DNA from: Rhizobium sp. WYJ-E13
Lineage (GTDB): Bacteria; Pseudomonadota; Alphaproteobacteria; Rhizobiales; Rhizobiaceae
Direction: 5' to 3'
NCBI RefSeq assembly: GCF_018987265.1
Contig: NZ_CP076853.1
Span: 2,232,001-2,296,000 of the forward strand
DNA length: 64,000 nucleotides
The notes beneath the pieces are model-generated. The model searched no databases and was not told the origin of the DNA. It saw only the letters and a list, made by a program, of their open reading frames with translations. Below, piece by piece: positions 54,538 to 57,694 of this stretch. The position numbers and the translations under genes are program-made. Numbering within the stretch: position 1 is the stretch's first letter; the number at the start of each line of letters is the position of its first letter.

Positions 54538-54789
54538 ATGTCGACAATAAGTGTGGCTGATGCCAAGGCCGGGTTTGCCGGTCTGGTCGATAAAGCAGCA
54601 AATGGCGCATTCGTGACGATCACGCGCCACGGAAAACCCGCTGCAGTGCTCGTTTCGGTCGAAGCCGCTGAGGCCGCAAAGAGAGCTTTGAATAGACCTC
54701 GGCCAAATTTCGGAGATTTCCTGCTCACCTTTCCCGGTGGCGTCGAGCTGGAGCGGAATCCCTCGAAAATGCGAGATGCTGATCTGTGA
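54538..54789 (+). CDS. Phd/YefM-family antitoxin
   Basis: The 83-residue product has the Phd/YefM fold: 'MSTISVADAKAGFAGLVDKAANGAFVTITRHGKPAAVLVSVEAAE', an N-terminal dimer that binds DNA, then a flexible tail expected to wrap the toxin. GGAGG precedes the ATG. Its stop overlaps the GTG of the PIN toxin by four bases. An inverted repeat upstream is the likely operator. It should neutralise the PIN ribonuclease. Confidence 0.9.
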   Translation: MSTISVADAKAGFAGLVDKAANGAFVTITRHGKPAAVLVSVEAAEAAKRALNRPRPNFGDFLLTFPGGVELERNPSKMRDADL

Positions 54790-55235
54790 CCGCTTATCTG
54801 CTCGATACTGATATCATTAGCAGGTTCGCGCCGGACAAGACCCCGCCTTCCGATCCGGTGCGGGCATGGTTCCATGAGCAAGGCGAGGCTGACGCGCTCT
54901 TTTTGTCCGCCATGTCGGTCTCGGAGATCGAAAAGGGAATGCGAAGCCTTCACCGTCGCGGCGGCATCGAGCGGGGAAAGCGCCTCGCCTCATGGCTCGA
55001 CTTCATCACTGAGAGTTTCGGTGATCGTATTCTGCCAATGGATACCGTGGTCGCGCGGATCGCCGGGGCACTGGAAGATGAGGCCGCGAGTAAAGGTCAC
55101 AATCCCGGCCTTGGCGATATCATTATGGCGGCCACCGCACGCGCCTACGACCTCACCGTGATCACCGAAAACGCCAGGCATTTTCGGCCGCTCAATGTTG
55201 CCGTCGATCTTCCGGCCGCGTTCCGGCCGGAATGA
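54786..55235 (+). CDS. vapC: VapC-type PIN-domain toxin
   Basis: The 149-residue product has the PIN acidic residues: 'YLLDTDIISRF' (Asp), 'FLSAMSVSEIEKGM' (Glu), 'NPGLGDIIMAATARAYDLTVITENARHF' (Asp and the closing Asn/Asp). It should be a magnesium-dependent ribonuclease that attacks RNA when free of antitoxin. Start is GTG in GTGA, overlapping the antitoxin. The module lies exactly where the first genes of the neighbouring bufferin-type operon would be expected. Confidence 0.9.
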   Translation: MTAYLLDTDIISRFAPDKTPPSDPVRAWFHEQGEADALFLSAMSVSEIEKGMRSLHRRGGIERGKRLASWLDFITESFGDRILPMDTVVARIAGALEDEAASKGHNPGLGDIIMAATARAYDLTVITENARHFRPLNVAVDLPAAFRPE

Positions 55236-55273
55236 TTCACCAAGCCCCATCACGCCTTCTTTACCACCCGCCT

Positions 55274-55300
55274 GTAACAACCCGTCCTCTCCTACGAATA
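55274..55300 (+). promoter_or_regulatory. GTAAC-N16-CGAATA, possible ECF promoter
   Basis: The spacing and sequence match an ECF (SigF-type) promoter directly before the truncated DUF2063 gene. Part of the same sequence could encode residues of that gene (PVLSYEYAQ), so coincidence is possible. Confidence 0.35.
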
Positions 55301-55769
55301 TGCCCAGGATATGCCCTGGCTCTCGGATGTGGCGCGTATCGAGCGCGCATGGCTGGACGCCTATCACGCCGCCGATGCGCCGGCGCTCAGGGCCGAAGCG
55401 CTCGCCGCCATACCGCCGGAAAAACTTGATGGCGTGACCTTCCAGCCGCATCCGGCAACGCGGCTGATCTCATCGGCCCACCCTGCCGTCACCATCTTCG
55501 CCATGAACCGCGGCTCAGGCCCGGTCAACCGCGTCGACGATCACCCCGAAGACGGACTGATCACCCGCATCGACGACGAGGTCACCGTGCGCCTGCTATC
55601 GTCAGGCGCAGCCGCGTTCTTCAACGCCCTTCTATCGGGCGAATGCCTCGCCGCCGCGGTCGCAGCCGGCCTCAACGCCCATCCCGCCTTCGATCTCTCC
55701 GCCGCCATCGGCGAGACGATTGTATCAGGCGCCTTTTCCGCTATCGAACTGGAGATTTCCAATGTCTGA
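55278..55769 (+). pseudogene. bufC: 5'-truncated DUF2063 (BufC/HvfC-type) gene
   Basis: The frame (ATG at 55311) encodes 'MPWLSDVARIERAWLDAYHAADAPALRAEALAAIPPEKLDGV', 'FQPHPATRLISSAHPAV' and a regular end 'FSAIELEISNV'. This is the C-terminal half of DUF2063; the usual N-terminal 90 or so residues, including the DNA-binding-like helices, are missing. A stop codon lies in frame at 55275. In intact loci the gene follows bufA (DUF2282) and bufB (DUF692); neither is present here. A toxin-antitoxin pair occupies the space upstream. The DoxX gene overlaps its end. Confidence 0.75.
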
Positions 55770-56300
55770 TATGCTTCACTCCCGCCCTCATAATGGGCCT
55801 CATAACGAGCCTCGCAACGGCTCTCTCTCCCCGCTGGCGAGGCTGGTGGCGACGGCTGACGGACTTGTCCGCACCGTCGCCCAACCCGATCTCGTCCAGG
55901 CTGTCCTGCGTGTGGCGCTCGCCGTACCCTCTGGCGCTCCGGCATCCTGAAATGGGATGGCTTCCTGCATCTCAACGATACGGCGATCGATCTCTTCACG
56001 CAGGAATTCATGCTGCATCTGCCGGGTGGCCCCTATCCCTTCCCCGCGCCTGCGGTCATGGCCTTCCTCTCCGGCTGTGGCGAGATCATCTTCCCGACGC
56101 TTCTGGTGTTCGGCCTCGCCACCCGCTTTGCCGGCCTCGGCCTGCTCTTCATGACGCTTGTCGTGGAACTCACCGTTCCCGATGGCTGGCCGATCCACAT
56201 CACCTGGGCGGCCATGGCGCTCGCCATCATGCGCTACGGGCCGGGCCGCCTGTCGCTCGACCATCTGATTGCGCGGATCTCAGGCGCTGCCAAGAACTAG
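55762..56300 (+). pseudogene. DoxX-family membrane protein, frameshifted
   Basis: The first frame (ATG at 55762) reads 'LARLVATADGLVRTVAQPDLVQAVLRVALAVP' and then runs into SGAPAS and a stop. From 55932 the next frame continues the family: 'WRSGILKWDGFLHLNDTAIDLF', 'FPAPAVMAFLSGCGEIIFPTLLVFGLATRFAGL', ending 'LDHLIARISGAAKN'. Restoring one base at about 55930 (CCCTTCTGG for CCCTCTGG) gives a full DoxX protein. DoxX genes normally end the bufferin operon. A sequencing error cannot be excluded. Confidence 0.8.
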
Positions 56301-56464
56301 ACCGACCGACGACGATACCAGCGCAAGCTCACCGCCCGGCTCTTCATCGCGCCGGGCGGCTTTTACGCTTTGTTGCCGCACTCCTCTTGCCGTTTGCCCG
56401 CCGATGCGCTCAATAGGCGCCGGCCTTGCCTCACGTGCCGCGTCATCAAAATTCTCAGGATGAC

Positions 56465-56491
56465 GGTAACAAACACGTGGACCCGTGCGTA
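56465..56491 (+). promoter_or_regulatory. ECF-type promoter of the sigma/NrsF operon
   Basis: GGTAAC and CGTA, separated by 17 bases, lie 14 bases before the sigma factor ATG. This is the SigF-type ECF consensus and predicts that the sigma factor transcribes its own gene. Confidence 0.6.
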
Positions 56492-56505
56492 GAGGATAGT
56501 GGCGG

Positions 56506-57072
56506 ATGAAACATTCGGCCCGTGAAGAGGAATGGGCGGCCTGGATGCGCGCGGCAATCGCCGGCGATATCAAGGCCTATGACCGTTTCCTGAAGGCCGT
56601 GACACCCTATCTCCGGTCGATTGCGCGCAGGCGCTGCGACCAGTTCGGTGCCCCGCCGAGCGAGGTCGAGGACGTGGTGCAGGAAGTGTTGCTGGCGGTT
56701 CATCTGAAGCGTGGGACCTGGGATATCTCCCGGCCGATCGGCCCGTGGCTGTCGACCATCGTGCGCAACAAGCTGATCGACAGCCTGCGCCGCCGCGGCC
56801 GCCATGTCAGCGTGCCGATCGAGGATGTGATGGAGACGCTGGAAGCCGATCACCACGAGGATGGCGCCGATCGCATCGATGTCGACCGCATGCTGGAAGG
56901 CCTGCGCGACCCACAGCGGGAAATCGTCCGGTCCATCTCGCTCGGCGGCGCCGGCATCCGCGAAACGGCCGAGAGACTACAGATGACGGAAGGCGCCGTG
57001 CGGGTGGCGCTGCACAGGGCGCTCAAGGGATTGGCGGCCCTCTATCGGAGCAATACGCGTGAAAACGGATGA
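56506..57072 (+). CDS. sigF: ECF sigma factor (SigF-type)
   Basis: The 188-residue product has sigma region 2 ('YDRFLKAVTPYLRSIARRRCDQFGAPPSEVEDVVQEVLLAVHLKRGTWDISRPIGPWLSTIVRNKLIDSLRRRGRH') and region 4 ('LEGLRDPQREIVRSISLGGAGIRETAERLQMTEGAVRVALHRALKGLAALY'). It overlaps the anti-sigma gene by 14 bases. In Caulobacter the SigF/NrsF pair controls bufferin genes in response to copper and other metals; the adjacent DUF2063 and DoxX remnants support the same role here. A GTAAC-N17-CGTA promoter lies upstream. Confidence 0.9.
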   Translation: MKHSAREEEWAAWMRAAIAGDIKAYDRFLKAVTPYLRSIARRRCDQFGAPPSEVEDVVQEVLLAVHLKRGTWDISRPIGPWLSTIVRNKLIDSLRRRGRHVSVPIEDVMETLEADHHEDGADRIDVDRMLEGLRDPQREIVRSISLGGAGIRETAERLQMTEGAVRVALHRALKGLAALYRSNTRENG

Positions 57073-57694
57073 CCTGATCAATATGCTGGCAAAGGATGCG
57101 CGCGTTCGCATCCGCTTCGGCCGTGTCTTCATGATCGCGCTTGGTATCGGCGTAGTGATTTCAGCCATGCTGCTGCTCTCGACCCTCGGTATCCGCAGGA
57201 ACATGGCCGACATGATCGAGACGCCGCGCGTCCTCTTCAAGCTCGGCTTCACTATGCTGCTCGCCGTCACCGCCACCCGCCTCGCCTTCCGCATCGGCAA
57301 GCCGGGCGTCTCGCTGCAATCTGCCGCCCTGATGCTCGTCCTGCCGTTGGCCGTTCTTATCATCGGCATCGCGACCGAGCTCTTCGTCGTGCCGCAGGCG
57401 GCCTGGGCAAGCAGCATGGAGGGCCGGTTCTCCGCCTTCTGCCTGTTCTACGTCCCGACCCTGTCGATCGCCCCGCTTGCCGCCATCCTCTACTCGGTCC
57501 GGCAGGGCGCTCCGGAAAATCCGGGCACGGCCGGCGCCGTGGCAGGCCTTGCCGCCGGCGGCATCGCAGCCGCCATTTACGCCTGGCATTGCCCCGACGA
57601 CAGCCCGCTGTTTCTGGCGACATGGTATTCGATCGGCATATTGGCCGCGACCGCGGCCGGTTTCCTCCTGGGCCGAAAAATCCTCCGCTGGTGA
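57059..57694 (+). CDS. nrsF: NrsF-type membrane anti-sigma factor (DUF1109)
   Basis: The 211-residue product has six hydrophobic helices ('VFMIALGIGVVISAMLLLSTL' and five more) and a short cytoplasmic N-terminus that should hold the sigma factor. Two Cys, C128 in 'FSAFCLFYVP' and C178 in 'YAWHCPDD', correspond to the metal-sensing pair of Caulobacter NrsF. The frame is intact, start GTG at 57059 inside the sigma gene. A terminator hairpin lies 210 bases downstream. Confidence 0.9.
   Translation: MKTDDLINMLAKDARVRIRFGRVFMIALGIGVVISAMLLLSTLGIRRNMADMIETPRVLFKLGFTMLLAVTATRLAFRIGKPGVSLQSAALMLVLPLAVLIIGIATELFVVPQAAWASSMEGRFSAFCLFYVPTLSIAPLAAILYSVRQGAPENPGTAGAVAGLAAGGIAAAIYAWHCPDDSPLFLATWYSIGILAATAAGFLLGRKILRW

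Follow-up and report, generated by a model that had tools for sequence, protein, structure and literature searches.

Decay of a bufferin operon beside an intact ECF sigma/NrsF pair in Rhizobium sp. WYJ-E13

This study concerns a locus of the soil bacterium Rhizobium sp. WYJ-E13 at which an extracytoplasmic function (ECF) sigma factor and its NrsF-family anti-sigma partner stand intact beside the remains of a bufferin operon, the bufferins being peptides that buffer copper. The locus lies within a stretch of 64,000 nucleotides, here called the window (C1:2232001-2296000, contig NZ_CP076853.1, in a 6.9 Mb genome of three contigs); coordinates bearing a contig name refer to the genome, and all others to the window. 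Judged by comparison with relatives, the window locus is a decayed ortholog of a class-1 (DUF2282) bufferin operon, from which a deletion would have taken the -10 element of the bufA promoter, bufA (the DUF2282 gene), bufB (DUF692) and the first half of bufC (DUF2063). The reading that we favour, and regard as somewhat probable, is that the operon decayed by this deletion while the sigma/NrsF pair went on working, with its own operon and a remote module as targets. NrsF would hold the sigma factor at the membrane until oxidation or metal binding at its periplasmic cysteines, a hold and stress-triggered release known from Caulobacter and Bradyrhizobium (PMC3511200 and PMC3420878), and the freed sigma factor would transcribe its own operon and, most likely, a divergent pair of units encoding a DUF1223 protein and a cytochrome b561 with an MsrP-like reductase.

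Comparisons were made within a genus sample of 148 genomes, WYJ-E13 counted, of which 97 carry NrsF at E <= 1e-35, and within a clade of 18 genomes, again including that of the window, whose NrsF is at least 74% identical to the window protein. By NrsF, the nearest named relatives are Rhizobium sp. BK316 (94%), several Rhizobiales AFS isolates, Rhizobium sp. BK418 and R. mesosinicum. Additionally, 80 named loci were surveyed for buf genes up to about 7 kb per side; DoxX matches in that survey mark position only, and DoxX frames were checked separately.

The ancestry of the locus is evident from relatives that have the whole operon at the orthologous position. One clade genome, G014, matches the window on both flanks and carries bufA-bufB-bufC-doxX-sigma-nrsF entire; aligned to it, window positions 55209-55284 correspond to the region upstream of bufA and end within the spacer of the bufA promoter, and positions from 55292 onward correspond to the middle of bufC (Table 1). 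The first 27 bases of the former stretch are the end of a PIN-domain gene. In BK316, the CGAATA of the bufA promoter -10 and a second CGAATA inside bufC lie 1651 bp apart, and a deletion of about 1.65 kb between these two repeats probably made the window locus. Of the components of a class-1 operon, the DUF2282 precursor, the DUF692/MNIO protein, a complete DUF2063 gene and a complete DoxX gene are all missing: neither bufA nor bufB was found at the locus on comparison with G014, and the DUF2063 remnant gives no Pfam match, the domain proper being N-terminal and in the deleted part. DoxX is split over two frames in the window only; each of the 23 named clade loci compared (L057-L078 and L087) has it in a single open frame.

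The original prediction, made from the letters of the window, had proposed a bufferin-type operon reduced to the C-terminal half of a DUF2063 gene and a broken DoxX, without bufA and bufB, that kept its sigma/NrsF pair, and this anatomy holds throughout, the whole operon of G014 and the deletion mapped against BK316 bearing out the decay itself. Its word 'ruined' suits the window locus but not the genome, which keeps two bufA/bufB/bufC sets elsewhere. That the deletion or the frameshift is an error of sequencing or assembly we consider very unlikely; there is one assembly only, and a single-base shift such as that in DoxX is typical of base-calling, but a 1.65 kb deletion at a six-base repeat, with clean joins on both sides, would be unusual for an assembly error.

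Table 1. Features of the decayed bufferin locus, its predicted remote target and its neighbours
Feature	Position	Strand	Basis
bufA-upstream stretch with promoter -35 half (GTAAC at 55274)	55209..55284	+	83% over 77 to G014; to BK316 from about 55236
Probable deletion junction; CGAATA common to bufA promoter -10 and mid-bufC	55285..55300	+	Alignments to G014 and BK316
bufC (DUF2063) 3' half	55293..55769	+	tblastn to G014 bufC, residues 139-302 of a 302-residue stop-to-stop frame, 73%
DoxX gene, frameshifted near 55930	55763..56300	+	PF07681 on 3' piece, E 2.9e-9; 88% to G014 gene
Sigma promoter GTAAC-N17-CGTA	56466..56491	+	40 nt before sigma start codon; identical in BK316
ECF sigma (SigF/ECF16 type), intact	56506..57072	+	PF04542, PF08281; NF009165 above cut-off; 98% to BK316
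NrsF-family membrane anti-sigma, intact	57059..57694	+	PF06532 E 2.3e-53; 94% to BK316
Divergent DUF1223 / cytochrome b561-MsrP-like module	C1:2218760-2221328	divergent	About 67 kb upstream of window sigma
Phd/YefM-family antitoxin, outside bufferin operon	54538..54789	+	Pfam PF02604 E 4e-13; NCBIfam phd_fam
PIN-domain (VapC-like) toxin	54786..55235	+	Pfam PF01850 E 2.4e-11

With the neighbourhood of a regulator taken as 10 kb or less from the best NrsF of each genome, bufB is a neighbour in 17 of the 18 clade genomes, the sole exception being that of the window. Relatives with the same gene order and no bufA/bufB, which the original prediction had named as telling against a loss, are thus absent from the clade (0/17), and among distant members a nearby bufB is often lacking, as detailed below. 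A deletion common to the window and BK316 was rejected; the BK316 locus has an edge at the same bufC position, and bufB and bufA lie just beyond it. BK316 (L057:1020-6400) also carries an insertion of about 5 kb between doxX and sigma/NrsF, whose genes look by eye, without a family search, like those for a DNA methyltransferase and a PIN protein.

Since the deletion joined the old promoter half to bufC coding sequence, the junction leaves a hybrid GTAAC-N16-CGAA at 55274, with a -35 half from the bufA promoter and a CGAA from within bufC. That this hybrid is a working promoter that expresses a free, functional C-terminal BufC domain strikes us as extremely unlikely. Both GTAAC and CGAATA survive, with an ATG behind them at 55311, and a 16-base spacer is present in the rpoE7 promoter of S. 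meliloti (PMC6180224), at the bufA site of locus L046 and at the sigma site of locus L054. However, such spacers are uncommon among the named loci (one of 67 sigma sites and none of 43 bufA sites), the window-only changes in the bufC remnant comprise as many amino-acid as silent ones, and the DoxX gene behind it is out of frame.

In make-up the surviving pair resembles SigF/NrsF systems of ECF16, a group name taken here from papers and not from an ECF classifier. As Pfam matches show, sigma regions 2 and 4 are followed by NrsF, and the pair has its own promoter of the GTAAC-N16/17-CGWA type; of the 79 named loci that have a sigma match, 67 carry such a site before sigma (N17 in 66, N16 in one) and 12 do not. 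The window NrsF scores 107.6 of 300 bits for the NCBIfam NrsF equivalog, short of its cut-off. It has exactly two cysteines, C128 and C178, the residues for which the original prediction had suggested a sensory role, and among 84 aligned full-length NrsF sequences that lack stops the first is kept in all 84 and the second in 80; they are equated with the published C131/C181 and C129/C179 by position and not by alignment. Relative to BK316, dN/dS is 0.10 for sigma and 0.18 for NrsF. When changes were assigned to branches between the window and BK316, with L058 as outgroup, those found only in the window numbered (silent/amino acid) 7/0 in sigma, 8/1 in NrsF, 8/1 in the 3' part of DoxX and 3/3 in the bufC remnant, and those on the BK316 side 4/3, 11/7, 6.5/6.5 and 5/3, respectively; these counts pool the time before and after the loss.

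The predicted remote target lies on the same contig (Table 1). Two outward-facing promoter-like sites, C1:2219519(-) and 2219626(+), stand one before the DUF1223 gene and one before genes for a b561 protein and a molybdopterin oxidoreductase. The DUF1223 protein looks secreted. For the membrane partner the match is to the b561 family of cytochromes (PF01292) and for the oxidoreductase to Pfam PF00174, the best NCBIfam model of the latter being MsrP at 98 of 207 bits, below the cut-off. Both sites, in identical geometry, are found in BK316, R. tubonense, a further genome (G004) and R. rhizogenes. While the intergenic region is 96% identical to that of BK316, which is little informative, it is 51-61% identical, with many gaps, to those of the other three, and the sites are kept. 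The original prediction had left a choice between a regulator stranded without its main targets nearby and one serving targets elsewhere, and these two promoters, about 67 kb off and shared with four other genomes, favour the latter. In R. tubonense the module adjoins sigma/NrsF; there (L130:4478-5660) the match to the sigma by the module is spread over two frames and that to NrsF is without its first 34 residues, and this pair may be broken. BK316 has one NrsF genome-wide (E <= 0.001), of the window type, and sites before sigma, bufA, DUF1223 and b561; because no second NrsF was found in that genome, the window-type pair is its one candidate among NrsF systems for reading these sites. The window genome retains three of those four sites. 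Our literature search, which was poor in subscription papers, returned no paper joining DUF1223 and a sigma factor, and this is no proof of novelty.

Several observations weigh against the favoured reading. Because the deletion is private to the window genome and changes in the 3' part of DoxX on the same branch are likewise mostly silent, the intact state of sigma and NrsF may mean only that there has been too little time for decay. In that case the pair would be a bystander heading for loss, whole merely through the recency of the deletion and with no target left that matters. To this we give a low probability; the DoxX and bufC remnants, still 88% and 73% like the G014 genes, are in keeping with it, as is the confinement of the deletion to one of 18 clade members, but two shared promoters persist at the remote module, and outside the clade 33 other genus genomes keep the pair without bufB within 10 kb, although contig ends may explain some of these. 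Additionally, the genome has further sigma/NrsF systems at C2:64 kb and C2:117 kb, either of which could recognise these sites. A genome-wide search for promoters, as the original prediction had proposed, does recover the sites at the remote module but gives no excess: KGTAAC-N17-CGWA yielded 21 hits against 41 for the reversed pattern, and with A also allowed as first letter 26 against 63. Motif counts alone having proved weak, promoter geometry and conservation were used instead. The b561 module itself was sought, at a cut-off of E <= 1e-40, in 35 genomes, five of them from the clade (the window's, BK316, G001, G008 and G014). Among 27 b561 loci, from 22 of the 35 genomes, five have DUF1223 and both sites; of the 22 others, 11 adjoin an ECF sigma, a more distant one that has its own sites, and the remaining 11 are without any such site, one of them (L177) in spite of an adjoining DUF1223. 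Within the clade, the module with its sites is present in only two of the five genomes examined, those of the window and BK316; in G008 the b561-MsrP genes are present but lack sites, and neither G001 nor G014 gave a match at that cut-off. The module can account for retention of the pair in the window genome, not across the clade.

A broader proposal, which we put forward tentatively and do not expect to be correct, although we would not call it far-fetched, is that SigF/NrsF in these rhizobia serves first of all to switch on a periplasmic repair module, consisting of DUF1223 and the b561-MsrP-like reductase, in response to redox damage, with the bufferin operon as an optional arm that has repeatedly been gained and lost. 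If this were true, the bufferin arm at this locus would have been knocked out naturally in the window genome, which would allow the copper and oxidant functions of the switch to be separated, and ECF16 regulons would gain a new member in DUF1223.

The search of the whole genome for DUF2282 and DUF692 genes, likewise suggested at the outset, found two of each, all on C2 and none at the window locus; together with two DUF2063 genes they form two sets, each with a DoxX gene. Set 1 (C2:118-121 kb) has a GTAAC-N17-CGAA upstream of bufA1, and between its bufB and bufC it encodes an extra protein of 326 residues without a Pfam match (L038:7087-8064 (-)). Set 2 (C2:168-171 kb) has no site of the GTAAC-N17-CGWA type in the 14 kb read. 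It is conceivable that the window pair now serves set 1 in trans, the site before bufA1 being of the type found before bufA in the clade, but we judge this improbable; set 1 carries its own sigma factor (35% identical to that of the window) and NrsF-family gene, and its marker, the 326-residue protein, is present in only 7 of the 148 genus genomes (E <= 1e-30). A hand-over to set 1 was also rejected on co-occurrence, the marker being found in 3 of 34 genomes without a nearby bufB and 2 of 63 with one, which is no association (Fisher P 0.34).

The further sigma/NrsF systems of the genome are a second sigma with two tandem NrsF genes at C2:64 kb, the sigma being 71% identical to that of the window, and a third pair at C2:117 kb. 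Seven of the 21 KGTAAC-N17-CGWA hits fall within the 17 kb of C2:47-64 kb, against an expectation of 0.05 (rough P 4e-10, for a region chosen after seeing the data). Among the genes behind these sites are that of the sigma itself and those for a hydrolase, a YHS protein and a TPR-like protein of 442 residues, and a site with a slightly different first letter stands at a second DUF1223 gene; the stretch as a whole (G000:C2:47145-64021; L166 and L167) holds YHS, TPR-like, hydrolase, peroxiredoxin and DUF1223 genes near sigma and the tandem NrsF. According to a rough open reading frame caller, 12 of 22 checked genome sites lie inside predicted genes, 3 of the 7 in the C2 cluster included; one of these precedes the YHS gene, and there a Pfam match on the opposite strand speaks against the caller. 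Among the named loci, similar sites occur, close to NrsF with or without sigma, at TPR-like genes (L083, L089, L103, L116 and L129), at DUF1223 (L083) and at YHS (L129), and genome G006 has a related cluster with a bufferin operon attached.

Regulators without neighbouring bufferin genes occur across the genus. The best NrsF is without bufB within 10 kb in 34 of the 97 genomes that have it, the window's included, with contig ends possibly explaining some, and in 14 of those 34 there is no bufB match at E <= 1e-50 anywhere. Likewise, 19 of the 80 named loci are without a bufA, bufB, bufC or DoxX match, some of them, e.g. L101 and L133, being cut by contig ends. Another ruined bufferin operon, with bufB and DoxX fragments beside sigma/NrsF, is seen in Ancylobacter mangrovi (L124:5431-6221). 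Five loci (L046, L048, L055, L099 and L128, with L055 and L128 probably one place) have a lone bufA divergent from sigma/NrsF, with no bufB or bufC nearby; the genomes of L046, L048 and L055 carry bufB elsewhere.

Upstream of the window locus is a toxin-antitoxin pair (Table 1), which the original prediction had placed where bufA and bufB once were. It sits instead upstream of the bufA promoter remnant, and in L058, L065 and L067 the same pair adjoins a whole bufA-bufB-bufC-doxX-sigma-nrsF operon. G014, which is without the pair, keeps upstream of bufA a leader-like stretch together with the codons for the last eight residues of the PIN protein and its stop, the scar of a lost pair; BK316 has no toxin-antitoxin pair at the corresponding place. 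The pair is gained and lost independently of the bufferin genes. Its position, its presence beside whole operons and the scar in G014 led us to reject the pair as an insertion that removed bufA and bufB.

The loss in the window is an ordinary decay event in a known system. Its interest lies in showing that an ECF regulator can outlive its adjoining operon, a state seen in about a third of the pair-bearing genus genomes, and in putting names, DUF1223 and the b561-MsrP-like reductase, to genes that such a regulator may serve. Sensing by NrsF of copper, chromate or oxidants could be tested in a strain without a bufferin arm at this locus, an advantage limited by the two further bufferin sets in the genome. 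In S. meliloti, according to PMC6180224, overexpression of RpoE7 raises a DUF692-DUF2063 operon, but peroxide, cadmium and chromate brought no response from RpoE7 promoter fusions.

Among known systems, the class-1 bufferin operons of Caulobacter (CC3252-CC3257) and S. meliloti (SMb20527-20532) are alike in gene kinds and promoter type to the operon from which the window locus descends; the window, by contrast, has no bufA or bufB, half of bufC and a broken doxX. In clade relatives all six genes, bufA-bufB-bufC-doxX-sigma-nrsF, run in one direction, unlike in S. meliloti, where four genes are divergent from sigma (PMC6180224). The ECF16 sigma/NrsF (DUF1109) pairs SigF-NrsF, EcfF-OsrA, RpoE7-EcfR7 and BcrS-AbcS share with the window pair their domains, gene order, cysteines and GTAAC-N17-CGWA promoter, but the window pair has no whole bufferin or Msr gene beside it and its predicted target is about 67 kb off. 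ECF16 regulons that include YedY or Msr genes are described for Caulobacter (PMC3511200), Brucella (PMC8315932) and Bradyrhizobium (PMC3420878). To the MsrPQ or bcrXQP-type modules under ECF16 control, the remote module is similar in its combination of a molybdopterin oxidoreductase, a membrane cytochrome and ECF16-type promoters, and it differs in having a membrane partner that matches the b561 family and a promoter region shared with a divergent DUF1223 gene.

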